In this document: one piece after another, positions 9,403 through 49,620 of the stretch
Position numbering within the stretch: position 1 is the first letter of the stretch
Layout of the letters: each line of letters starts with the position of its first letter
Assembly (NCBI GenBank): GCA_944390885.1
Contig: CALXRP010000002.1
Location: 1-64,000 of the forward strand
DNA: 64,000 nucleotides
Direction: 5' to 3'
Origin: an uncultured Alphaproteobacteria bacterium
GTDB taxonomy: Bacteria > Pseudomonadota > Alphaproteobacteria > RF32 > CAG-239
The notes under the pieces: model-generated
Told to the model about the DNA's origin: nothing
Databases searched by the model: none
Seen by the model: the letters and a program-made list of their open reading frames with translations, nothing else
Position numbers and translations under genes: made by a program

Positions 9403-10335
9403 TTACTCCTTGAAATTTATACCCAAATTGTTGAGACTTTTGCAAAAATGTTCCGGCAGGGGCGCCGAAACGACCATTTTTTTATTATATAGGCACGATA
9501 AATCAATTTTGTATGCATGTAAATGAAGTTTATCGCCGATATTGGATAACCGTACCCGTTCTTTGCCGAAATATTTGTCGTCCCCGGCAATCGGCGTTCC
9601 CAGATATTCCAAATGCGCGCGGATTTGGTGCGTTCTTCCGGTCAATGGGCGTGCCTCAACCAGCGCAAATTTATCACCCAGCGTATCCAAAACCTGATAT
9701 TCCGTCACCGCCGGCTTACCGCTTTCCGTAACCATAACCTTTTCACCGATTTTCTCAAGCGGAGCTTTAATCACACCGCTCAACTGCTTCGGACAGCCGC
9801 GCACCAACGCAAGATAAGTCTTCTGCAAACTGTGCTCACGAAAAGCTTTTGTCAGCAAATCGGCATATTTGCGGTTTCTGGCCAATACCAGAATTCCGCT
9901 GGTATTCTTGTCAATCCGATGCACCAGTTTTGGCTTCTCGTCCTTTTCAAATTTCAACGCATCCAGCATCCCGTCAATATGAAAACCGGTATTTGTTCCG
10001 CCCTGCACCGCAATTCCGGACGGTTTGTTCAAAACCAGAATATTATCATCTTTATAAATAACCATACCCAAAACAAAATCTGCATCTTTTTTGCTGATTC
10101 GGTTTTGTTTCGGAGCCTCAGATTCGTCCAGATGCAGCGGCGGAATTCTGACTTCGGAACCGGCCGCAAGTTTCAATGATGTTTCAGCTTTTTTACCGTC
10201 AACCTTAATCTGCTTTGTCCGCAAAAGTTTTTGCAGATGCCCGAGGCTGAGTTTAGGATAATATTTCATAAACCAACGGTTCAGACGCATTCCGTCATCA
10301 CTTTCTTTAACTTTTATAATTTCCACACCGGACAT
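9403..10335 (-). CDS. rluC: 23S rRNA pseudouridine synthase, RluC/RluD family
   Basis: The 310-residue enzyme converts specific uridines in 23S rRNA to pseudouridine. An N-terminal S4 RNA-binding domain (about 15-65) precedes the catalytic domain with HRIDKNTSG, where Asp142 is the nucleophile, and the GRTHQIRAHL motif. RluC rather than RluD is suggested by the operon with the ATP12 gene, but sequence alone does not separate them with certainty. AAGGA lies seven bases before the ATG. First gene of a three-gene operon. Confidence 0.9.
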   Translation of the reverse strand: MSGVEIIKVKESDDGMRLNRWFMKYYPKLSLGHLQKLLRTKQIKVDGKKAETSLKLAAGSEVRIPPLHLDESEAPKQNRISKKDADFVLGMVIYKDDNILVLNKPSGIAVQGGTNTGFHIDGMLDALKFEKDEKPKLVHRIDKNTSGILVLARNRKYADLLTKAFREHSLQKTYLALVRGCPKQLSGVIKAPLEKIGEKVMVTESGKPAVTEYQVLDTLGDKFALVEARPLTGRTHQIRAHLEYLGTPIAGDDKYFGKERVRLSNIGDKLHLHAYKIDLSCLYNKKMVVSAPLPEHFCKSLNNLGINFKE

Positions 10336-38274: not shown

Positions 38275-38350
38275 GCCGACATAGCTCAGTTGGTAGAGCT
38301 ACTGATTTGTAATCAGTGGGTCGGGAGTTCGAGTCTCTCTGTCGGCACCA
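38275..38350 (+). tRNA. tRNA-Thr, anticodon TGT
   Basis: 76 bases with encoded CCA. Acceptor arm GCCGACA / TGTCGGC, D arm GCTC...GAGC, anticodon stem ACTGA / TCAGT with loop TTTGTAA giving TGT, and T arm with GTTCGAG. It reads ACA threonine codons. Its 3' 47 bases recur exactly at 47941-47987, marking it as an island attachment site. The gene remains intact because the island end restores the 3' half. Confidence 0.97.
38304..38350. repeat. Left attachment repeat (inside intact tRNA-Thr)
   Basis: 47 bases identical to 47941-47987. It covers the anticodon loop to the CCA end of the tRNA. Confidence 0.95.
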
Positions 38351-38593
38351 TCATAAAATCACATATCTAAAATCAATACTAGAGATACTGTAACTGTTTA
38401 TTTTCCTTTCAGCTTAAAAAAAGAAGACAAGAAAAATAAATAAAACTTAGAATAAACAATGAAAAAAACTGAGTAAAAAGAAACTGCATTTTAAGCTTTA
38501 TTAAACAATGTTATAAAATTAAAAATCAGACCACAATTATCTAATATTCATTATTCACTTTCTGATTTTTTGCACAATAATAGGATTAATTTT

Positions 38594-39448
38594 CTATTTA
38601 TAAAAAACATTAAAAAAAACATTCCGATGAGCACTGTTTTCTACTCCAATTAGCTCAAAGCTATTAAAATATAGTTTTGATTTAACAAAATAATCATAAA
38701 TTTTCAGTCCGTATTTCAATACTTCAAAAATAAAATTTAGCTCAATCGTTGTTTCCTTATAATTAAATAAATCAGGACATATATCATATAATTCCATTGC
38801 ATTTTGCACTTTAGGCAAATCATCTGAAGGATGAGATAAAATAAAAGAAACACGTTGTTTGCACAAAATTTCTCGCGAATTCATATATTCCATAGAAATA
38901 TTTTTAAGAGATATTTTTTTTGCAAAAGCTACATCTGTAATATTATAATTCCACTTATTTCTAATTACAATTTCTGGATTAATTCTACCTTTAGATAAAT
39001 CCGTTGCATCAAAACCCTTCCCTAATATTTCTATTATGAAATTACCATATTTATCAACTAAAACAATAAATGATTTATTATAAGAAAGTCTATCCCCTGG
39101 AGAATCAACAAGAATTATATTATAATTTTTTGTTATCAATTTAAGAATTAAATTAGATGTATCATAAAAATTAAGTTGTACACCATTTATTTTATTCTCA
39201 CACAAACTGTCTTCTTTTTCAACTCTTACAAGAACTTTTTTACTTGGATCAAGGTTATGTAACTGAAAAAAATTTTTTACAGCCTGAAGAGCTTGGACAA
39301 ATGACGTACCTTTTCTTATCAAACACATATCATTTATAGGGATATTAAGACTTGCTAAAAGCAATGCAGTATCCCATTTTTTTAAATTAAAAAAATATTC
39401 CGATAAATTTTGTTTTTCTTTCTCTAAAGAGCTTACAATATAATGCAT
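38594..39448 (-). CDS. Island protein of unknown function, 284 residues
   Basis: Divergent from the radical SAM pair, sharing a 67-base intergenic region with it, so probably coregulated. AT-rich. No signal peptide or membrane helix. The middle has a phrase EILGKGFDATDLSKGRINPE, followed by RNKWNYNITD, which is distinctive but not tied to a family I know. Possible partner, substrate-binding or tailoring protein for the radical SAM enzymes. No RBS is obvious. Confidence 0.7.
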   Translation of the reverse strand: MHYIVSSLEKEKQNLSEYFFNLKKWDTALLLASLNIPINDMCLIRKGTSFVQALQAVKNFFQLHNLDPSKKVLVRVEKEDSLCENKINGVQLNFYDTSNLILKLITKNYNIILVDSPGDRLSYNKSFIVLVDKYGNFIIEILGKGFDATDLSKGRINPEIVIRNKWNYNITDVAFAKKISLKNISMEYMNSREILCKQRVSFILSHPSDDLPKVQNAMELYDICPDLFNYKETTIELNFIFEVLKYGLKIYDYFVKSKLYFNSFELIGVENSAHRNVFFNVFYK

Positions 39449-39515
39449 AATATTATTGAAATCTTATATTTTTTATTATAAAGTATGTACAAATTTTTTA
39501 TATAGAGGATATTAT

Positions 39516-40421
39516 ATGAAAAAAATAACTGATGCAACTATTTTTTACGACAAAATAAAAGATCAATACTCTTTCAAACTACATTCTCCATTATCAGTAT
39601 GCTGGCAGATAACGACAAAGTGTAATTTGACATGCAAATACTGCTTATCATCTTCTGGACCTCAAAACACTTATGGACTATCTACAAATAAAGCAAAAGA
39701 GGTCATAGATATGTTATCAGAAATTAATGTCAATCGTTTAGACTTTACGGGTGGAGAACCTTTTTTAAGAAAAGATTTAAAAGAGCTCATTGCATATAGC
39801 ATTGAAAAAAATATTAGTCCTTTAGTTACAACTAATACTCTGCTTTTATGCGAAGACGACATGAAATTCTTAGCTGAAAAAAATGTCCTGGTTCAAGTTA
39901 GCATTGATGGAACTCAAACGACACATAATCATATAAGAGGTGGGGATGTTTATAATACAACACTTAATAATATAAAAAAACTTATAGCATTTGGATGTAA
40001 AGTTAGGTTAAATAGTTTCATTTGTCGCTCAAATATTCAAGATATAAATAGCGTATTAAAGCTTGGAGAAAATTTAAATATTTTTTCTCATTTAATAATA
40101 TTATTTACTCCTCAAGGTCGAGGTATCAATTTTGAAAATGAAATTTTAAAAGACGAAGAAAAAGAAAATTTAAAAGATTATTTGATGAATTATATGACTC
40201 AAACAGGACGTTATATTAGACTCTATGATTATGATGAATATGAACACTCCTGTGTATTAATAACACCGGAAGGAGATGTTATTTCTCAAGCCTTACATGA
40301 AAAAGATTGTTTGAAAGTAGGTAATTTATTCGAAACCCCATTGAACACATTATTTCAAAATGACGCTTTTGATCATTTTAAACATTTAGCACATTATATA
40401 CAAAGAAGGATAAAAAAATGA
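39516..40421 (+). CDS. Radical SAM protein, PqqE/SPASM-like without extra clusters
   Basis: 301 residues from the ATG at 39516, where AGAGGA lies six bases upstream; an upstream in-frame extension is not supported. The CxxxCxxC motif is Cys36, Cys40, Cys43 (TTKCNLTCKYC), binding the 4Fe-4S cluster that cleaves S-adenosylmethionine. TGGEP is at 78-82. The C-terminal part keeps the SPASM-like layout (ITPEGDV ... KVGNLFETPLNTLF) but has lost its cysteines, apart from scattered ones. The gene overlaps the next radical SAM gene by four bases. Substrate unknown. Confidence 0.9.
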   Translation: MKKITDATIFYDKIKDQYSFKLHSPLSVCWQITTKCNLTCKYCLSSSGPQNTYGLSTNKAKEVIDMLSEINVNRLDFTGGEPFLRKDLKELIAYSIEKNISPLVTTNTLLLCEDDMKFLAEKNVLVQVSIDGTQTTHNHIRGGDVYNTTLNNIKKLIAFGCKVRLNSFICRSNIQDINSVLKLGENLNIFSHLIILFTPQGRGINFENEILKDEEKENLKDYLMNYMTQTGRYIRLYDYDEYEHSCVLITPEGDVISQALHEKDCLKVGNLFETPLNTLFQNDAFDHFKHLAHYIQRRIKK

Positions 40422-41416
40422 AAATAACTGATAACACAGAAATTTCAGGAGGAATTATATGGAATGGTTCTTTTTATCCAAAAAAAAATCTTGCTTCTGG
40501 AACAATTAGATTAGTTTTATCTTCTAAATGTAATTTTAAATGTAAATTCTGTTTTGCCGAAGGAGAAGATAAAAAAGACAGAACTCTGGACATAGATTAT
40601 ATAAAAAAGATTCTAAAAATATCAAAAGAATTTGGGATAAAAAATGTTAAACTTACAGGAGGAGAACCTTTATTATACCCTAATCTAGAAGAATTACTTA
40701 GATTTATAAAAGATGAAGACTTCAAATATCTAGATATAACGACAAATGTCTCACTTTTAGATGACAAAATGATAGATCTTTTAAACCAATATTCCGTTTA
40801 TGCTTTAACTTTAAGCTTAAGTGCATTTGACGCAAATAAATATGCAAAAATAACTGGTTTTAAAGGATTTGAAAAAATTATTAAAAATATTACAAATGCT
40901 AAAAATAAGTTTAACGGAAACCTTAGAATAAACAGTGTGGTTTTTGATGAAGGTTTTAATTTAGATGAATACAAAAATATTATAAAATTTTGTATAGAAA
41001 ATTCGCTTGGTTTAAGAATTGTTGAACCCACAACAGTAAAAAATTTAGATATTACCTATAATCACACCGCATTCAATGAAGTTAAAACATATTTAAAAAA
41101 TACATATAAATTTTTAAAGTCGCAATGCGAATCTGTAGAATATTATTTTTATGACAAGCAAAAATATATAACAGTAATGAAGAGTTTATGCGACAATAAG
41201 CTTTGTAATGTTTGTAGGGATTATATGTATATTAGACTATCTTCTGATGGAAAATTAAAGCCATGTTTGTCCCGAAAAGATACAGAAATTGATATACCTT
41301 TAAATGCATCAGAAAATTTAATTAGAAATGCATTTATAATGGCGATACACAATGTTGGAAATGGCTTACCGGATCACCCCTTCGATGGCTTGAATAATCC
41401 TTATACGTCAAGTTAA
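40418..41416 (+). CDS. MoaA-like radical SAM enzyme with second Fe-S site
   Basis: 332 residues. Cys38, Cys42 and Cys45 (SSKCNFKCKFCFAEG) bind the SAM-cleaving cluster; TGGEP is at 80-84. C-terminally CNVC (263-266) and Cys283 in SSDGKLKPCL look like the MoaA auxiliary-cluster site CxxC...C, but with 16 instead of 13 residues between. The MoaA C-terminal GG is absent (it ends PYTSS). No other molybdopterin gene is near, so a different reaction is likely. Coupled by ATGA to the upstream radical SAM gene. Confidence 0.88.
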   Translation: MKITDNTEISGGIIWNGSFYPKKNLASGTIRLVLSSKCNFKCKFCFAEGEDKKDRTLDIDYIKKILKISKEFGIKNVKLTGGEPLLYPNLEELLRFIKDEDFKYLDITTNVSLLDDKMIDLLNQYSVYALTLSLSAFDANKYAKITGFKGFEKIIKNITNAKNKFNGNLRINSVVFDEGFNLDEYKNIIKFCIENSLGLRIVEPTTVKNLDITYNHTAFNEVKTYLKNTYKFLKSQCESVEYYFYDKQKYITVMKSLCDNKLCNVCRDYMYIRLSSDGKLKPCLSRKDTEIDIPLNASENLIRNAFIMAIHNVGNGLPDHPFDGLNNPYTSS

Positions 41417-41608
41417 AATAAATATTTTCAAAAACATTGAGATTACAATTAGTTATAAAGCATACAATTTAAGCGCAATCATTTTTATAGAGTTGCATAA
41501 TTTCATGATTTGGATATTTTTATTCACTAATAAACTTTAAAATTAACCATTTCTATATAAAACAATAAACTAACAAATAGATATTTAGAAAAATTTAGTC
41601 AAAAATTA

Positions 41609-41637
41609 TTGACAAAATATTTTTCTTCAATTATCAT
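41609..41637 (+). promoter_or_regulatory. Promoter of the island proS
   Basis: TTGACA (41609-41614), 17 bases, TATCAT (41632-41637). The start site would fall near 41644, supporting a proS start downstream of the first ATG at 41641. The rest of 41417-41608 is AT-rich with no gene seen. Confidence 0.65.
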
Positions 41638-41688
41638 CTCATGACAATTAAAAATGATCTTAAAATTTTTAGAAAAAGGATAACAGAT

Positions 41689-43542
41689 ATGAAAATGAGT
41701 CATATGCTGGGACGTCGTACGAAGCAAGATCCTAGCGACGCTAAATTAAAAAGTCATAAATTACTTATTAGAGGTGGATATATACGCCCTGTTTCAAATG
41801 GTATTTATTCAATTTTGTTTCCTGGACAAAAGGTTCTAAAAAATATAGAACGAATTGTCAGAGAAGAAATGAATGATATTGAAGGTCAAGAAGTTGAAAT
41901 GCCATTGGTTCAACCTAAAGAGTTGTGGGAAGAATCCGGCCGCTATCAAAGTATTAATGATGAACTTGTTCGCTTAAAAGACCGCAACGATCACGATATG
42001 GTTCTTGCTATGACTCATGAAGAAGCAGCCGTCGCTTTAGCTCGCACCGAAGCTGTTAGCTATAAAGATTATCCATTTATGATATATCAATTTGCGAAAA
42101 AATTCCGCGATGAAGCTCGTCCTCGTGGCGGATTAATTCGAGTCAGAGAATTCACTATGAAAGATGCTTATTCTTTCCATACCAACCAGAAAGACCTTGA
42201 AGACTACTATGCTAAATGTGCCAAAGCATACAGCAGAATTTTTGCAAAAGCCGGAGTTCCAGAAGTAGTCGCTATTAAATCAGATAGTGGTATGATGGGA
42301 GGAAATGTATCTCACGAATACATGCTTTTAACCGAAGGCGGTGAAGACACAATCATAACTTGTCCTGATTGCGATTATAAAGCAAATAAAGAAGTTGCTG
42401 TATCTGAAATTCCTGTAGAAAATGGACAAGATATAGATAAACCTTTACAGAAAATTCATACTCCAAACGCTCAAAGCATTGAAGAACTTTCAGAAATGCT
42501 AAATCTACCCAAATCTCGCTTTTTGAAAACAATATTCTATAAACCTATAAGTGAAGACGGAAAACCCATTGCTGTAATGATTCGAGGGGATATTGAAGTA
42601 AATGAAAATAAATTAGCAAAAATATTAGGAGTATCTCCTGAATTTGCTAATGATGAAATGATAGAAAATTCAGGGGCTGTAGTTGGATTTGCGTCAGGTT
42701 TTGGAATTGAAGACAAATGCCACGTCATCGTAGATAAATCTGTTCAAAACGAAAAGAACTTAATTACTGGAGCAAATGAAAAAGATTATCATATTGCAAA
42801 TTTCAATCTTAACAGAGATATGCCTAACGCAAACATCTTTGATGTTGCATCAGTAAAAGAAGGTGACAGATGCGTAAATTGCGGAAGCGAATTAAAAATT
42901 AATCGCGGTATTGAAGTGGGAAATATTTTCCAATTAGGAGAAAAATACACCAGCAAAATGAATATGCGCTATATTGACGAAAATGGAAAACAACAGACAC
43001 CTATTATGGGATGCTATGGTATTGGTATTGGTCGTCTAATGGCTAGCGTTGCAGAAGTAAGAAATGATGAAAAAGGTATTATATGGCCTGTTTCTCTTGC
43101 TCCATGGAAGATGAGCATAATTTCTCTTTCTCCGAAAAACGGAAACGATACATCCATAGATGATAATGCCAAGAAAATATATACATCACTTCGCGCTAAT
43201 GGACTTGATGTGATTTGGGATGACAGAAAAGCAAGTGCCGGAGAAAAATTTGCTGATGCTGATTTACTTGGTATTCCTATGCAATTTGTCGTAAGCCCAA
43301 GAAATCTTGAAAAAGGATTAATTGAGTGGAAAGAACGCGCCACAGGAAATAAAGGTTTTGTATCTATTGATGAAGTAACGCAATTTGCAACTCAATGGTT
43401 TTCTACAGAAATGGATAAATTAAATGCCAATGCAGATAATGTAAAACCATTGCCACAAGCTGAAATATCAAATGCTCCTAAAGCAGATAACAAAATTGGT
43501 ATTTTCAGACAAATTTTAAATTCTAAAAGACAAAACTTTTAA
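41689..43542 (+). CDS. proS: Prolyl-tRNA synthetase with INS editing domain
   Basis: 617 residues from the ATG at 41689 (AAGGA eight bases upstream; family start MKMSHML). Class II motifs are in TRTEAVSYKDYPFMIYQF-like and FRDEARPRGGLIRVREF, and GCYGIGIGRL. An insertion of about 130 residues (258-388), with LKTIFYKP, is the INS editing domain of the long bacterial type. The usual Alphaproteobacterial ProRS is about 440 residues and lacks INS, so this gene is probably acquired. A C-terminal tail of about 40 residues is added. It may be the cell's only proS, or a second, inhibitor-resistant copy. Confidence 0.93.
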   Translation: MKMSHMLGRRTKQDPSDAKLKSHKLLIRGGYIRPVSNGIYSILFPGQKVLKNIERIVREEMNDIEGQEVEMPLVQPKELWEESGRYQSINDELVRLKDRNDHDMVLAMTHEEAAVALARTEAVSYKDYPFMIYQFAKKFRDEARPRGGLIRVREFTMKDAYSFHTNQKDLEDYYAKCAKAYSRIFAKAGVPEVVAIKSDSGMMGGNVSHEYMLLTEGGEDTIITCPDCDYKANKEVAVSEIPVENGQDIDKPLQKIHTPNAQSIEELSEMLNLPKSRFLKTIFYKPISEDGKPIAVMIRGDIEVNENKLAKILGVSPEFANDEMIENSGAVVGFASGFGIEDKCHVIVDKSVQNEKNLITGANEKDYHIANFNLNRDMPNANIFDVASVKEGDRCVNCGSELKINRGIEVGNIFQLGEKYTSKMNMRYIDENGKQQTPIMGCYGIGIGRLMASVAEVRNDEKGIIWPVSLAPWKMSIISLSPKNGNDTSIDDNAKKIYTSLRANGLDVIWDDRKASAGEKFADADLLGIPMQFVVSPRNLEKGLIEWKERATGNKGFVSIDEVTQFATQWFSTEMDKLNANADNVKPLPQAEISNAPKADNKIGIFRQILNSKRQNF

Positions 43543-43557
43543 CTAAAAACAACTATG

Positions 43558-43589
43558 AAAAAAGCCTAGAGTAATATCTAGGCTTTTTT
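43558..43589. terminator. Bidirectional terminator after proS
   Basis: GCCTAGA / TCTAGGC flanked by A6 and T6, with a 6-base loop. The stop codon of the minus-strand kinase gene is inside the hairpin. Confidence 0.9.
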
Positions 43590-44102
43590 CATATCTAATT
43601 TCTTAAATAAATCTACAAAGTCTTTTTTGTTTTTCACAATAAAGAAATTATTTTTATTTTTAAGATAACTGTTTATTTCTTTTTGAATTATCCCGTTACT
43701 CGTATCCCACTCCATTATCTTTTTTAAAGTAGGTTTTCTATAATGATATGCTTGAACAGGCAAATCACTATCAATCTGTTTCCCTATCAACTTTTTGGCT
43801 TTAAAAAAGCGCAATGTAAACCTCCAAGCTGCCACCAAACGAGAAACTTTTATATATACCACCAAATCAGGAACAACCTTTTCATAGAGATATTTTTGGC
43901 TACCTTCCATAACCCATACAGCATTATCTTTTTCAAATTGCTTTAGTTTTTCTAACTGCTGCTCTTTTGTATAATACTCTCCGGTATCTTTATTTCTACA
44001 AACTTCATCAATATTCAAGCGAGCAATTCCATATCTTTTTTGTATATTATACGCCAGAGTTGATTTTCCAGCACCCATTAATCCTAAAATCAAAATTTTC
44101 AT
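43578..44102 (-). CDS. P-loop kinase, FlaR/adenylate-kinase-like
   Basis: 174 residues. Walker A GLMGAGKST at 7-15, a mobile lid-like region and ALNIDE-type segment LNIDEVCR suggest a nucleoside- or small-molecule-kinase fold. It resembles proteins annotated as DNA topology modulation protein FlaR, a name without solid function. The helical YIKVSRLVAAWRFTLRFF segment fits that family. It may phosphorylate a small molecule, possibly the island product, which is speculation. Convergent with proS. Confidence 0.75.
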   Translation of the reverse strand: MKILILGLMGAGKSTLAYNIQKRYGIARLNIDEVCRNKDTGEYYTKEQQLEKLKQFEKDNAVWVMEGSQKYLYEKVVPDLVVYIKVSRLVAAWRFTLRFFKAKKLIGKQIDSDLPVQAYHYRKPTLKKIMEWDTSNGIIQKEINSYLKNKNNFFIVKNKKDFVDLFKKLDMKKA

Positions 44103-44321
44103 AACATTTCCTTTTTATATAACACTTATTTCATATAATTATCCTATTAGCAAAAAAAATACAACAAATTTTCTATAATTTCAGAAATAAATTGTTACTC
44201 TAAAAACAGTCTAAATCATTGAAAAACAGTAATATTTTTCTAAAAAGTACTTGCGTTTCTCCGTGGATATGTCAGTATAGAATATGTAAAGATAATTTAA
44301 TAAAATCAAGGAGTTAGGAAA

Positions 44322-44690
44322 ATGGAAAATGTTTTAGAAGATGAATATGATGATAGCTTTTTATCCCCTAATCATCAAAAAATCGCTGAGTTAAATGACC
44401 AATTCAGAAAGAGCTTCTGCGGTGGTAAAGTCCTTATGACTTGCGGAATTGACGCTTTGGATTGGGCTACAAAAGCAAAAATTATAAGCAAGGTACAAAA
44501 ATTTAATGAGTTTAATTTCAAAAATGACCCTCACGGAGAGCATGACTTTGGAATTGTCCAAGAAGGTGATGTAGAGGCTTATTGGAAAATTGATTATTAT
44601 GACAAAACTTTGACTTATGGCTCTGAAAATCCAGCAGATGAATCAATAACCACCAGAGTTTTAACAATTTTATTACCGATTGAATATTAA
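44322..44690 (+). CDS. DUF3768 protein
   Basis: 122 residues with the DUF3768 features: GGKVLMTCGIDAL, NFKNDPHGEHDFGIV, WKIDYYDKTLTYGSENPAD and TTRVLTILLPIEY. Such genes are frequent on plasmids and integrative elements of Alphaproteobacteria, function unknown. AAGGAG is seven bases upstream. The next gene starts 15 bases after it, likely one operon. Confidence 0.88.
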   Translation: MENVLEDEYDDSFLSPNHQKIAELNDQFRKSFCGGKVLMTCGIDALDWATKAKIISKVQKFNEFNFKNDPHGEHDFGIVQEGDVEAYWKIDYYDKTLTYGSENPADESITTRVLTILLPIEY

Positions 44691-44705
44691 TAAAGGAGAG
44701 CAAAA

Positions 44706-45407
44706 ATGACTTTTGATGTAAAAAAATACCCCGGATATACAGAGATGTTATTCCGCAATCGTAAACCAACATTAACCAGAAAGAAATCTCTTGAAACCTT
44801 TTATACCGGCGACAATAAAGAAGTTTATTTATATGACTTTTATAATAAATACTATTTCTTTATGAAATTTGAAGGTTTTGAGCCATATATTAATGTCCAC
44901 ACCGACAACAAATACCAAGTCAACCAGTTTGATAAAATGATTGAAGAATATCAAGAAAAGTTCAAAAGCATTAAAATTGATGACGTGGAAGAACAATTTG
45001 TAAATGTTGTAACCAAAAAGCAACCCGATGATATAAACCCCGAATATTTAGATTTTTGCCAAAAATACATTAAGCGAAAAGGTTTAGATGTTCCAGAAGA
45101 ACCGGTAGTCGTAACCGAGTGCCATAAAATAGGTTATGATGAAAACGGAAGAATGACCTTTGAAAAAGTTGAAATGGAAGACGACACGGAGATACAAGAG
45201 GAGCCTCAAGAAAACGCTCCTCTTTCTTTTAGCGAAAATGCGCTGGAAGAAGTCCAAGAAAACGAAGATGACGAATGGAAAGGATTTCCACCGGAAACCA
45301 TTGTTCCAATTCCGACAGATGAGATTGACGAAGAAATTTGCAACGTAAAATCTGATAAAGTCAAAAAATCTAAAAAAAAATCGAGCAAAAAGAAGTCGAA
45401 AAAATAA
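44706..45407 (+). CDS. Hypothetical protein with Lys-rich tail
   Basis: 233 residues following the DUF3768 gene by 15 bases, with AAAGGAG upstream. The N-terminal 100 residues look folded; the middle is acidic (Glu/Asp-rich) and the last 20 residues are almost only Lys and Ser. The acidic-then-basic layout suggests a nucleic-acid-associated or scaffold protein. Family not recognised. Confidence 0.65.
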   Translation: MTFDVKKYPGYTEMLFRNRKPTLTRKKSLETFYTGDNKEVYLYDFYNKYYFFMKFEGFEPYINVHTDNKYQVNQFDKMIEEYQEKFKSIKIDDVEEQFVNVVTKKQPDDINPEYLDFCQKYIKRKGLDVPEEPVVVTECHKIGYDENGRMTFEKVEMEDDTEIQEEPQENAPLSFSENALEEVQENEDDEWKGFPPETIVPIPTDEIDEEICNVKSDKVKKSKKKSSKKKSKK

Positions 45408-45419
45408 ATGAAGACAGCA

Positions 45420-45451
45420 TAATCCGGAGATTGGAAGCAATCTCCGGATTA
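45420..45451 (+). terminator. Perfect 14-bp hairpin after the DUF3768 operon
   Basis: TAATCCGGAGATTG pairs fully with CAATCTCCGGATTA around a 4-base loop. No T run follows, so it may act as an RNA stabiliser or protein site rather than an intrinsic terminator. Confidence 0.5.
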
Positions 45452-45548
45452 AGTTAGCTTATCGGGAGAAATCTTTTCCACTTGGGATTCCCCCAATTTA
45501 CAAATGGCAAACCTCGCGGGGTATTTTAATTAAAATCAGATTTTTAAA

Positions 45549-45577
45549 TTGACAAAAAATTGATTTTTTGGTATAAA
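45549..45577 (+). promoter_or_regulatory. Promoter of the 206-residue protein gene
   Basis: TTGACA (45549-45554), 17 bases, TATAAA (45572-45577). Close to consensus. Confidence 0.75.
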
Positions 45578-45620
45578 AATAATACTTATTTTTTATTATT
45601 CACTTTAATAATTCTAGTTT

Positions 45621-46241
45621 ATGAAAACAACTTTCAACAAAGAAGGCAATACTTATGAAGTATGGCTGAATGTTAAGAAAATTTTTATCGAATTTATCGG
45701 TGGCGGAGAAGATTGCTTTTTCTGTAGTATCATAACACGAGATGGACAGTATTTTCAATGTGCTGTCAGTTTCCAAAATCTGGCTCCCTTTGTATTAGTC
45801 AGAGAAAATGAACGGCTCCACATTACTTTGGAGATGATATCCTCTCAGACCTCAATGATGCGCGTATTGCAGTGCCAAAATCTTTCTCAAAAATGGACTG
45901 GCATTGCTAAGATTGAACCTCATCAGTTCATCAACCAATGTTACACATTGAAAATCGACGTTGATAAAGTATTCTTCGTTTCAATGCCATTCCATAAGTT
46001 AGGTGAAGACATCGTTTCAAGGCAACATTACTATTGCTTAATTACAGCTCCAAATTTTGGTTATGCTGTTCTTGATTGTGGCGGTGGTTTCTTTAAAAAG
46101 ATTTTCAATCTTAAGTCCGGCGACAAGGCAGAGATAACAGTTGCCAAAAAGCAATGTGCTGATTATTTGGTTATTGTAAACTACCAACAAGCTCCGGCTC
46201 CACAGAAATCACTTAACCATACATTGTTTATGTTGCCATAG
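45621..46241 (+). CDS. Hypothetical island protein, 206 residues
   Basis: No recognised domain, signal peptide or membrane helix. It has several Cys residues (about seven) and a glycine-rich stretch GGGFFKK. Its sequence uses alternating strands (FFCSIITRDGQYFQCAVSF). It has its own promoter and is followed by a clear terminator. Its GC content is nearer to the flanks than the radical SAM genes, so the island may be a mosaic. Confidence 0.65.
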   Translation: MKTTFNKEGNTYEVWLNVKKIFIEFIGGGEDCFFCSIITRDGQYFQCAVSFQNLAPFVLVRENERLHITLEMISSQTSMMRVLQCQNLSQKWTGIAKIEPHQFINQCYTLKIDVDKVFFVSMPFHKLGEDIVSRQHYYCLITAPNFGYAVLDCGGGFFKKIFNLKSGDKAEITVAKKQCADYLVIVNYQQAPAPQKSLNHTLFMLP

Positions 46242-46262
46242 AGGCTTACGCTGTTAAATTCT

Positions 46263-46294
46263 AAAGTCCGTTATAAAAAAACGGACTTTTTTTT
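46263..46294. terminator. Terminator downstream of the 206-residue protein gene
   Basis: AAAGTCCGT / ACGGACTTT with a loop of A-rich sequence, followed by eight T on the plus strand. Confidence 0.9.
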
Positions 46295-46301
46295 ATGTAT
46301 T

Positions 46302-46490
46302 TTATTTCAATAGCAAGATTCCGCTTAGACCATATTTATTTAAACCTTCAAAACGACCATTTTCATCTGTTATAAAAATTCCTTTTTCTGAAAAATCAAC
46401 TTGCTGATTTTTTGGCATTTGTTTCAACATTCTATTTTTAAAATAATGGATAGTTCCTTTTTGGTCTTTCCAAAAGCCTGCAGTACACAA
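46302..46490 (-). CDS. Short fragment-like hypothetical protein
   Basis: 62 residues beginning at a TTG. The frame continues further upstream as KYVAGENT before a stop, without ATG, so this looks like the 3' end of a broken gene. FEGLNKYGLSGILLLK and GFWKDQKGTIHYFKN appear protein-like. Terminator sharing with the convergent gene supports a once-real gene. Low confidence. Confidence 0.35.
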   Translation of the reverse strand: MCTAGFWKDQKGTIHYFKNRMLKQMPKNQQVDFSEKGIFITDENGRFEGLNKYGLSGILLLK

Positions 46491-46580
46491 CGTATTCTCT
46501 CCAGCGACATATTTTATTATTCATATTTTTAATAAATATTAAAAATATATGTTTAATATCTTCTTTATAAATCTATAACA

Positions 46581-47750
46581 ATGGACATATTAATGATTAA
46601 AAATTTAAGAATTTTTCCAATTTTTGAAATATTTTACAGATTTACCCCTCATTTTTTAATTGCTCCTTTGTATTATCAAGAGATTTTAGGTTCATATACC
46701 TTAGCTATGGCTGTATTTTCTACAACTCTTATAAGTTGTTCTATTTCTGAAATTCCAATGGGAATCATTTCAGATTTTATTGGCAGAAAAAGAACTATTA
46801 TTTTTGCCTCATTTTGTAATTTTTTTAGTTTTCTGTTATTTATTCTTGCTGGAATATTTGAACAATACTCTAATGTTTTGTGCTTTTCTGCTGCTATCGT
46901 TTTAGGATTATCTCAGGCATTATATAGCGGTACACTTGATGCTTTTATTTACGAAAGTATTAAAGCCAGCAATCAACTTGAAGATTATAATAGACTTTAC
47001 AGCCGCATAAAAGGTCTTGGAGCTATGTCATCAGCGATTTCTGCTTTATTATCGGGAATTTTAAGTTATTACTATCCCTACATTATTTGTTTTTATCTAT
47101 CTGGTTTTGCCGCTGTTATGACAATGATAATTGGCTTATTTTATTATAATATAGATTATTCTTCTGCATATTTTTCATATAAAAATTTAAAAGAACACCT
47201 TAAAAACATTTATCTTTTTTATAAAAACAATACAAAACTTCGTTGGATAAGTTTGGCTAAAATTATGGGAGATAATGTTAGTTATCGAATTGATATAATT
47301 TATTTTAAGATGTTAATTCCTGAATATTTATTAGGAACTCCTAGGATGCTGAAGAAATTTTGCGAATGTATCAGTTATATCTATGCTTCATATTTAATTG
47401 AAAAATTTAAGCCAATCGGCGTTTTGATTATCTCAAATTCATATATGATTGCCATTCGAAGCTTGGCTATTGGATTAAACAACTTCTTATCCCCATTTAT
47501 AATATCTTTGGTTGATTTATTAGACGGGACATCTTCAACATCTTTCTCTAATTTATTACAGCATGAATATAGCGACAAACAACGAGCAACAATGGAATCT
47601 ATTATAAGTATGGTATCAACAATTTGGACATCAATATTGTTGCTATTAATTGGTATTGTAATTGATTATACAGGTGTTCGTTTTGCTTTATTCGTATTAA
47701 TCATATATAGATTTATTCGTTATTTTATTTATTATAAAGTTTTGAGATAA
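46581..47750 (+). CDS. MFS transporter
   Basis: 389 residues, about 12 hydrophobic helices. The loop between helices 2 and 3 has GIISDFIGRKRT (61-72), the major facilitator motif A. No drug class can be inferred, but in an island with radical SAM enzymes an exporter of the product, or an importer, is plausible. No good RBS is visible. AT-rich like the radical SAM genes. Confidence 0.88.
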   Translation: MDILMIKNLRIFPIFEIFYRFTPHFLIAPLYYQEILGSYTLAMAVFSTTLISCSISEIPMGIISDFIGRKRTIIFASFCNFFSFLLFILAGIFEQYSNVLCFSAAIVLGLSQALYSGTLDAFIYESIKASNQLEDYNRLYSRIKGLGAMSSAISALLSGILSYYYPYIICFYLSGFAAVMTMIIGLFYYNIDYSSAYFSYKNLKEHLKNIYLFYKNNTKLRWISLAKIMGDNVSYRIDIIYFKMLIPEYLLGTPRMLKKFCECISYIYASYLIEKFKPIGVLIISNSYMIAIRSLAIGLNNFLSPFIISLVDLLDGTSSTSFSNLLQHEYSDKQRATMESIISMVSTIWTSILLLLIGIVIDYTGVRFALFVLIIYRFIRYFIYYKVLR

Positions 47751-47940
47751 AAACTACAATTAAACCATATCTTAACTTTTTGGAGCCATAAAAAAGCTCA
47801 ACAGATAACTTTTGATACTTGTAACAGGCTGGTGGGAGCTTGTTTTAGCGTGGTAGCTCGATGATAGCCCAGCAAAAAAATAGCTAAATTTTCAAGATTA
47901 ACACATTGATTTACAAAGATAATATCTTGCAAACGCAGTC

Positions 47941-47987
47941 GATTTGTAATCAGTGGGTCGGGAGTTCGAGTCTCTCTGTCGGCACCA
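47941..47987. repeat. Right attachment repeat (tRNA-Thr 3' fragment)
   Basis: 47 bases identical to 38304-38350. It lacks the 5' half of the tRNA and cannot make a functional tRNA. Confidence 0.95.
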
Positions 47988-47992
47988 GTTTT

Positions 47993-48022
47993 CAAGCCCC
48001 TGAAATTCAAGGGCTTTTTCTT
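47993..48022 (+). terminator. Original tRNA-Thr terminator, displaced by the island
   Basis: AGCCC-c-TGAA / TTCA-a-GGGCT hairpin with a T-rich tail lies just outside the right repeat. It presumably ended the tRNA transcript before the island separated it from the gene. Confidence 0.75.
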
Positions 48023-48026
48023 TTAT

Positions 48027-48203
48027 TTAATTCATTTTAACAGATTTTTCCAAACAAAAAGCCAGCCCTCCGTTCAAAAACAAAGGGCTAGCAATCACAA
48101 AGCACAATCCGATCACTGCCTCAAAACATTTTAAGCAGTCCATACAATCGCCTCTGTCCAAATTCTGCTTGGCCAAACCGACATCGGCAAAAATATCAGA
48201 CAT
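48027..48203 (-). CDS. Small Cys-containing hydrophobic protein, 58 residues
   Basis: Starts 19 bases after the aldo/keto reductase stop on the same strand. It reads MSDIFADVGLAKQNL, a cysteine cluster CMDCLKC, then a hydrophobic stretch (AVIGLCFVIASPLFL). It could be a small membrane or metal-binding protein. No good RBS is visible, so it may not be translated. Family unknown. Confidence 0.4.
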   Translation of the reverse strand: MSDIFADVGLAKQNLDRGDCMDCLKCFEAVIGLCFVIASPLFLNGGLAFCLEKSVKMN

Positions 48204-48222
48204 TTCCGTTTTTCAAAAATTT

Positions 48223-49461
48223 CTATACCTCAAAAGTCTTTGCAACTTCTTTCATCCACTTGCTGATTTCAATATGCTGCGGACAATGTTGTTGACAAAG
48301 CTTGCATCCGATACAGGCTGAAGCCTTACCATGTTCTTTAGCCAGATTGGCATATTGCTCTCTGCGAGCACGAACCGGTTTCTTTGACCATCCCTGCTTT
48401 TCAGCATTATATAAAGCAAAATATTCCGGTATGGCTATTTTCATCGGACAATACTCAACACAATACCGACAGGCCGTACAGGGAACAGATACTGTTTTAT
48501 GCAAAGTCTTAATAGCATTCTCAACAACTTGCATTTCTTTCTTGTTCAATGGCTTAAAATTCTGCATATAAGAAGTATTGTCTTCCAATTGTTCCATATT
48601 GGACATACCGCTCAGCACCATCATCACGCCGTCAAGGCTGGCCGCATAACGGATTGCCCATGAAGCCACAGACATCTCCGGCTCGGCATCTTTAAAGATT
48701 TTCTCAACCGGATCCGGCACCTCCGCCAGACTTCCGCCTTTAACCGGCTCCATAACAATTACGGGTTTATTATATTTCTGAGCAATTTCATAACATTTCC
48801 GCGCCTGAATATCCTCACTGTCCCAATCTATATAGTTAATTTGCAGTTGAACAAAATCAACCTCAGGATGTTCCTTAAGCACCTCTTCCAACATTTCGGC
48901 TTTATCATGAAAAGAAAATCCCATTTGCTTGACTTTTCCTTCTTTTTTCTTATCTGCCACAAATTTAAAACTGTCATACTTGCGCACATTGCCAATTGTA
49001 TTAGCATTAATATTATGAACAAGATAATAATCAAAATAATCCAGACCGGTCTTTTCAAGCTGCTTATTAAAAATTTCTTCCTGCTCTGCCTTGTTTTTAA
49101 TTGAGCCGACCGGCAATTTGCTGGCAACGGTAAATTTATTGCGCGGATGCCGTTCTACCAAAGATTTTCTGATAGCTACTTCGCTTTCATACCCCATATA
49201 CATCCAAGCCGTATCAAAATATGTAAATCCGCGTTCAAGAAAAGTATCAACCATTTTGTTCAGAACATCATAATCAATAGCCGTCTGATCGTCCGGATTC
49301 TTCAATGGCAGGCGCATAAAACCGAAACCAAGTTTGTTTTTCGGATCAATTTTGGCTTTAACGGCATCCGAAACCGCAACGGCTTCCGCCAAAGTGAGTT
49401 TTGGCAAAGCTGACAAAGCAAAAACCGCCAAAGTGCTCATTAAAAATTCCCGTCTGTTCAT
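48223..49461 (-). CDS. Fe-S aldo/keto reductase, exported
   Basis: 412 residues. The N-terminus MNRREFLMSTLAVFALSALPK resembles a twin-arginine signal, so the protein may fold with cofactor before export. The aldo/keto reductase barrel keeps Asp and Tyr in YFDTAWMYMG, Lys in VASKLP and His in YYLVHNIN. Two C-terminal ferredoxin-type 4Fe-4S sites are formed by Cys328/331/334/338 and Cys383/386/389/393. It may pass electrons in a redox pathway. A 12-base repeat ATGGTCTAAGTC occurs at its start codon and at its promoter. Confidence 0.92.
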   Translation of the reverse strand: MNRREFLMSTLAVFALSALPKLTLAEAVAVSDAVKAKIDPKNKLGFGFMRLPLKNPDDQTAIDYDVLNKMVDTFLERGFTYFDTAWMYMGYESEVAIRKSLVERHPRNKFTVASKLPVGSIKNKAEQEEIFNKQLEKTGLDYFDYYLVHNINANTIGNVRKYDSFKFVADKKKEGKVKQMGFSFHDKAEMLEEVLKEHPEVDFVQLQINYIDWDSEDIQARKCYEIAQKYNKPVIVMEPVKGGSLAEVPDPVEKIFKDAEPEMSVASWAIRYAASLDGVMMVLSGMSNMEQLEDNTSYMQNFKPLNKKEMQVVENAIKTLHKTVSVPCTACRYCVEYCPMKIAIPEYFALYNAEKQGWSKKPVRARREQYANLAKEHGKASACIGCKLCQQHCPQHIEISKWMKEVAKTFEV

Positions 49462-49530
49462 GGTCTAAGTCTCCGTAAAAAATTCCACTCCATTTCTGTA
49501 GTTTAATTTTTAAAGTATGGTCTAAGTCAA
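49460..49530 (-). promoter_or_regulatory. Promoter and repeated 12-mer for the Fe-S aldo/keto reductase
   Basis: TTGACT (49525-49530, minus strand) with a 17-base spacer to ATTAAA (49502-49507) or a 19-base spacer to TAAACT. The 12-mer ATGGTCTAAGTC is present at 49460-49471 and 49517-49528, the second overlapping the -35 box. The pair may be an operator. The 19-base spacing recalls MerR-type promoters, but this is uncertain. Confidence 0.4.
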
Positions 49531-49620
49531 GATTTTTTTTAATTTTTTTAATAAATTTCTTATAAAAAAATAAAGCAAAATTGATTCCCTGATTACCGGC
49601 CGGCAACAAATACTCCAAAT

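Follow-up and report, generated by a model that had tools for sequence, protein, structure and literature searches.

A tRNA-Thr-inserted genomic island without an integrase gene carries a second, P-type prolyl-tRNA synthetase in an uncultured alphaproteobacterium

The analyzed stretch of DNA (hereafter, the window) comprises 64,000 nucleotides (nt), i.e., positions 1–64,000 of contig CALXRP010000002.1 of an uncultured Alphaproteobacteria bacterium (GTDB lineage RF32; CAG-239; assembly GCA_944390885.1), whose genome (G000; 1.70 Mb, 35 contigs) was compared with other genomes, mostly metagenome assemblies. The contig titles of its relatives name uncultured Alphaproteobacteria, several of them of animal gut or rumen origin. 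Within the window, a genomic island (38304–47987) occupies the 3′ end of a tRNA-Thr gene and contains a second prolyl-tRNA synthetase (ProRS) gene. The initial annotation of this locus correctly listed a divergent gene of unknown function, an overlapping pair of radical S-adenosyl methionine (SAM) genes, an INS-type proS, a P-loop kinase, a DUF3768 gene and a major facilitator superfamily (MFS) transporter, to which two unlisted open reading frames (ORFs; 44706–45407 and 45621–46241) were added.

The insertion target is the tRNA-Thr(TGT) gene at 38275–38350 (plus strand), recognized with ARAGORN and Rfam, and G006, a genome of the same genus, has this tRNA with another T-arm. The 3′ part of the gene (38304–38350, plus strand) constitutes attL, and a second perfect copy of this 47-nt tRNA 3′ end (47941–47987, plus strand) constitutes attR, at a spacing of 9637 nt, which gives an island of 9.64 kb. 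The runner-up direct repeat across 14.5 kb was 25 nt long and 80% identical. The GC content per kb is 25–36% within the island versus 34–52% outside. The perfect 47-bp repeat bracketing AT-rich DNA, as it was initially described, was thus confirmed together with the GC shift, and the whole genome has no perfect copy besides attL and attR.

An empty tRNA-Thr site, which the initial annotation had proposed to look for in relatives, was found in G006. The 7.5-kb left flank of this genome is 91.7% identical to that of the window through the final base of the tRNA, and the tRNA end is joined there directly to the 42 right-flank nt that follow attR here (window 47941–48029 corresponds to positions 9603–9691 of the G006 locus L113, 91% identity). 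Beyond those 42 nt, other DNA has been inserted in G006 and the chromosome is rearranged. The two strands of the T-arm stem differ together between the native gene of G006 (CGCGG..CCGTG) and both copies in the window (GGGAG..CTCTC), so that pairing is kept, and such paired changes on both sides of the stem fit an attP carrying a replacement tRNA 3′ end. Judged by comparison with G006, the segment 38304–47987 is an insertion of foreign DNA. It shares with tRNA-inserted islands the tRNA 3′-end repeat at both boundaries, the foreign base composition, and the unoccupied site in a relative, except that no integrase gene was found among the island genes.

The right end of the island (47801–47940, plus strand) is conserved in a family of elements. 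Right ends 89–91% identical to it stand beside the same core in G001, G004, and G002, and the 47-nt core itself is identical in the former two and has one mismatch in the last one. Within this region there is an arm-type repeat, GTGGTAGCTCGATGATAGC (47850–47868, plus strand), and the 120–140 nt preceding attR hold a repeat of the form GTGGTAGCTCGGTGGTAGC. The cargo behind the shared right end differs, i.e., Abi_2 in G004, an HATPase/DUF4325 (STAS)/PIN set in G001, and, in G002, AbiEii with an upstream AbiEi-like gene, both enclosed by a pair of consecutive right ends. No intact integrase was found in the sister-cassette stretches of G001, G002, and G004. G000 encodes only two tyrosine recombinases, both XerC/XerD-like and with counterparts across the genus, and G001 contains two decayed integrase fragments, 92% alike, near the same att family. 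Ends common to other elements and the lack of a recombinase gene are the traits of a trans-mobilized cassette, known as a cis-mobilizable element (CIME), and these common ends identify the island as a member of a modular family of cassettes inserted in tRNA-Thr. As it has no integrase of its own and its right end is found behind unrelated cargo in three relatives, its movement probably depended on an integrase provided in trans, and at present it is likely immobile.

Several other observations concern the same site and its neighborhood. The G002 right ends lie ~2.6 kb apart around the AbiEi-like/AbiEii pair (L116:105–3016, G002:C77), forming a tandem array of small integrase-free cassettes. 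A ~92-nt segment of the island (45455–45545, unstranded) is 92–93% identical to sequences near the right ends of other elements in G001 (L061:17539–17630) and G002 (L116:105–202). In G001 (L067:1233–1526, contig C27), a broken 38-nt tRNA-Thr 5′ half lies ahead of a second tRNA-Thr, in whose acceptor the 5′ strand (AAAGACA) pairs incompletely with the 3′ strand, which suggests repeated insertions at this tRNA. In G006 (L113:15684–17441, contig C3), a tRNA-Asp gene is located between tRNA-Thr and an aldo-keto reductase gene, then comes a gene for an asparaginyl-/aspartyl-tRNA synthetase-like protein (tRNA-synt_2, 249 bits), with sugar-epimerase and sialate-synthase-like genes after it; this may be another insertion that carries a synthetase. 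In the window (48169–49559), the orientation of the aldo-keto reductase gene by attR with respect to the ArsR/CadA-like genes is opposite to that in G001 and G006, and the larB/larC-like genes, which occupy several kb in G001, are missing between them.

The ProRS gene of the island (41641–43542, plus strand) encodes a P-type enzyme, i.e., one of the bacterial type with an INS editing domain, and its probable true start is codon 17 (41689), where its homologs begin. The protein scored above the NCBIfam cut-offs (683 vs. 558 bits and 588 vs. 307 bits), aligns end to end with solved bacterial ProRSs (PDB), and has an intact INS/YbaK domain as well as the class II motifs, with the RPR motif for tRNA contact in motif 2. 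Two host tRNA-Pro genes were examined and both have C1:G72 and A73, the identity bases of P-type tRNA-Pro (PMC12152171), so the island enzyme appears to fit these two tRNAs. The gene seems to form its own transcription unit, with a predicted promoter and a terminator. A putative sigma-70 promoter, TTGACA-17-TATCAT (41609–41637, plus strand), ranked first for the region and has a counterpart in G001 (TTGATA/TATCAT), although it is a consensus match only (11/12), and predicted sites of all grades are as numerous in shuffled sequence as in the island. A bidirectional intrinsic terminator (43554–43593; −24.2 kcal/mol, z = −8.3) separates ProRS from gene E. Rfam searches found no leader RNA or T-box upstream of the ProRS gene.

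The first search suggested that the island enzyme is the sole ProRS of the host. This was rejected, since an intact native enzyme of the E-type, scoring only ~1e-5 against the island ProRS, is encoded elsewhere in the genome (G000:C10:42482–43996, complete), its nearest solved structures being those of the T. thermophilus and human ProRS. The host thus shows the arrangement known for resistance synthetases, i.e., a second enzyme of the other type beside an intact native one. E-type ProRSs occur in ~22% of bacteria and have no INS domain (PMC12152171). Among 152 genomes of the host's family, the E-type was found in 144, several of the misses being incomplete genomes, and the P-type in three, i.e., G000, G001, and G018, where the enzymes of the latter two are 99% and 70% identical, respectively, to that of the island. 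Both G000 and G001 keep the E-type beside the P-type. In G018, a genome of a related genus (99% complete, five contigs), only the P-type was identified (L062:9809–11593, contig C2), and no E-type was found at two thresholds, including a laxer one, whereas the E-type is present in G031, a congener of G018.

In the ProRS phylogeny, the enzymes of the window, G001, and G018 form a clade (support 98/93), placed beside the single-copy ProRSs of small-genome alphaproteobacteria (100/100). The genomes of the latter, with the exception of that of locus L159, have no E-type enzyme. Because the neighboring lineages in the tree mostly lack the E-type, the island ProRS, foreign to the host's family, most likely derives from such a small-genome alphaproteobacterial lineage. 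Record L139 (JAISVX010000003.1), deposited as 'Lactobacillaceae bacterium Mx356_bin52', gave the same ProRS match as contig C2 of G018, which itself belongs to the alphaproteobacterial family of the host, and the name of the record looks wrong.

The ProRS genes of G000 and G001 differ at 19 of 1899 sites, and their divergence at synonymous sites (dS) is 0.03, compared with 0.38 for the native ProRS and 0.37 for the flanking peptidase. This dS, about ten times below that of the core genes, indicates that the two hosts came to share the gene long after their divergence and, along with the pre-insertion junction in G006 and the recurrence of the right end with different cargo in three relatives, it bears out the initial proposal of an integrase-free island in tRNA-Thr. 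Of the 19 changes, seven are nonsynonymous and 12 synonymous, and the nonsynonymous ones fall below the neutral expectation (p = 9e-5 to 1e-3 for kappa 1–4), a pattern indicating that the island ProRS is under purifying selection. The native enzyme is also constrained (dN/dS, the nonsynonymous to synonymous ratio, ~0.06). At the G001 locus, a split and inverted one that calls for cautious reading, ProRS is intact, only the last third of the radical SAM gene C is left, and genes A and B are absent, so the retention of ProRS in G001, after the loss of A, B, and most of C, is independent of them. The 3′ end of gene C adjoined ProRS already in the ancestor shared with G001. It was also observed (window 41060–43542 vs. 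L061:10286–12771) that the ProRS coding sequence (19/1902) differs significantly less than the intergenic region and the adjoining radical SAM 3′ end (18/357), and that this holds for synonymous sites too (Fisher p ~2e-5), perhaps owing to recombination or re-transfer of ProRS alone.

Upstream of ProRS, gene A (38594–39448, minus strand; 284 aa) is divergent from the radical SAM pair; no homolog of it was found, and its structure model was not usable (predicted local distance difference test score, pLDDT, 37). Gene B (39516–40421, plus strand; most likely starting at ATG 39516) encodes a 301-aa radical SAM enzyme with the CNLTCKYC motif and without a full SPASM domain, and its nearest models are the mycofactocin maturase, SkfB, and viperin, with scores below family level for each. 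It was considered as a viperin, since it matches the model of kinase-associated prokaryotic viperins over the full length (97 bits), whereas MftC and PqqE match only the N-terminal part of that model (65–71 bits). This assignment was rejected, as the score against the curated viperin model is 73 bits versus a cut-off of 180, and the MftC/PqqE controls are just 20–30 bits lower than gene B. Gene C (40418–41416, plus strand), overlapping gene B by 4 nt, encodes a MoaA-like radical SAM enzyme with a C-terminal Cys motif, but it falls short of MoaA proper (145–174 bits vs. cut-offs of 231–325) and its C-terminus reads NPYTSS, with no GG. The co-occurrence of the island proteins across genomes, which the initial annotation had suggested searching for, was not seen for A–B–C with ProRS. 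Scans of the genome collection by short exact peptide matches, which reach close relatives only, so that distant homologs may exist, found neither the pair nor gene A elsewhere, and the three genes are absent from the examined flanks of 24 related P-type ProRS loci, apart from the dead stump of gene C in G001. A conserved A–B–C–ProRS module was therefore rejected within the reach of these scans. Beside the pair, a search for a precursor peptide gave only unremarkable short ORFs.

The remaining cargo lies downstream of ProRS. Gene E (43578–44102, minus strand; 174 aa) encodes a P-loop kinase-like protein, weakly similar to FlaR and 'DNA topology modulation' proteins, and gene F (44322–44690, plus strand) encodes a DUF3768 protein, whose homologs adjoin integrase-like genes in G004 and G005. 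Genes G (44706–45407, plus strand; 233 aa) and H (45621–46241, plus strand; 206 aa) are of unknown function, and gene I (46581–47750, plus strand; 389 aa) encodes the MFS transporter, with weak similarity to drug-efflux models.

The island resembles several known systems only in part. As in the islands inserted in tRNA or ssrA genes, e.g., the Dehalococcoides vcr islands, a tRNA-type gene was the site of insertion of horizontally acquired cargo, but here there is no integrase (PMC3146451). CIMEs, derived from integrative and conjugative elements (ICEs) by accretion or deletion, are likewise flanked by att sites and devoid of a recombinase gene, and the ends common to neighboring elements and the decayed integrase fragments of G001 fit this picture (PMC5704250). 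Unlike for ICE-derived CIMEs, no conjugative element with the ends of the island was found. The island enzyme has the P-type architecture with the INS domain and RPR motif, and the native one is of the E-type, in accordance with the described division of ProRSs (PMC12152171), with the difference that here both types coexist in one genome and the second is located on a mobile island. The closest analogy is provided by IleRS1/IleRS2, two ancient types of isoleucyl-tRNA synthetase, of which the second may stand beside the first, and the type foreign to the host can bypass the inhibited one; IleRS2 is such a second enzyme, tolerant to mupirocin (PMC4861432). The present case differs in concerning ProRS, in its reverse polarity (a native E-type and an acquired P-type), and in the location of the gene within a tRNA-inserted cassette.

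The initial annotation viewed the whole island as a possible undescribed metabolite or tRNA-linked system. As one co-functional unit this found no support, given that no other occurrence of the radical SAM pair or gene A was seen and ProRS is a separate unit surviving the loss of the pair; what stands is narrower, i.e., that ProRS is redundant and of a foreign type, suggesting a role in bypass or resistance. To the explanation that the island is a cassette carrying a bypass P-type ProRS, working when the E-type enzyme of the host is inhibited, we assign about an even chance. Site-specific recombination, probably with an integrase acting in trans, inserted the island into the 3′ end of tRNA-Thr(TGT), where attP would have brought a replacement 3′ end and left the tRNA intact, and excision would join the right end to TCATAAAATC across the 47-nt core. 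The P-type ProRS, transcribed from its own predicted promoter, would charge the host tRNA-Pro while the E-type enzyme is blocked by a compound that may come from a competitor, a plant, or the diet, and the acquisition of the P-type could end in the loss of the native synthetase, as may be the case in G018, where the P-type is the sole ProRS. Several points weigh against this explanation. Purifying selection indicates an enzyme useful now or until recently, and is not proof of a resistance role; and no integrase able to act in trans was found in the present G000 genome. Moreover, halofuginone, the best known ProRS inhibitor, strongly affects the P-type ProRS of Klebsiella (PMC13003883), so the type alone does not predict resistance, and simple halofuginone resistance is a weakened candidate.

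Other explanations were weighed against the same evidence. The P-type ProRS may have hitch-hiked as a neutral or opportunistic gain that duplicates the native function and sometimes replaces it (G018), with no inhibitor involved. The exchange of aminoacyl-tRNA synthetases between lineages is common, and the P-type is the ordinary single-copy enzyme in the nearest reduced alphaproteobacterial genomes; we nonetheless consider this account unlikely, because both synthetases are constrained, G001 retains the second one after losing most of the neighboring cargo, and the gene has its own predicted promoter and is carried by a mobile cassette. A biosynthetic cassette, in which the radical SAM pair and gene A (perhaps with the kinase) would make a ProRS-directed antibiotic, with the P-type ProRS for self-immunity and the MFS protein as an exporter, would explain why tailoring-type enzymes are encoded together with a redundant enzyme of the target type and with a transporter weakly similar to drug-efflux models, and why the radical SAM 3′ end was next to ProRS in the ancestor shared with G001. 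In a self-immunity cluster, the biosynthetic genes would be expected to be conserved with the synthetase, whereas in the examined flanks of the related loci only the G001 stump was seen, the pair with gene A was not found elsewhere, ProRS outlives the pair in G001, and no obvious precursor peptide lies beside it, all of which makes this reading rather improbable. In a minimal, and quite improbable, version of such a cassette, the two radical SAM enzymes and the orphan protein would make a new inhibitor of E-type ProRS, from which the P-type would protect the carrier, and strains that lost the pathway and kept the synthetase (G001, G018) would be resistant cheaters.

An anti-phage cassette, in which gene B and the P-loop kinase would constitute a viperin-like pair and ProRS would spare translation, might be suggested by the cargo of the sister cassettes (Abi_2, AbiEii, and PIN/STAS/HATPase) and by the full-length match of gene B to the kinase-associated viperin model. 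We regard it as very unlikely, since gene B is far under the viperin cut-off and resembles mycofactocin and sactipeptide maturases more closely, gene E gives only a weak kinase match (24.5 bits), and defence systems are not known to include a ProRS. It is also conceivable that the editing domain itself was selected, either for clearing Ala-tRNA-Pro or for resisting proline analogs, as the INS/YbaK domain of the island enzyme is intact and the E-type has none (PMC12152171). The acquisition of free-standing editing proteins would serve such a purpose more simply, and an uninhibited native enzyme would go on mischarging, which renders this option very doubtful.

A ProRS of the other type on a mobile cassette, together with a fully switched relative, offers a concrete and testable route to the replacement of an essential synthetase. 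It may also point to ProRS-directed pressure in gut communities, which is of relevance because ProRS is a drug target. Finally, the tRNA-Thr site appears to be a hotspot for integrase-free cassettes, others of which carry abortive-infection genes.

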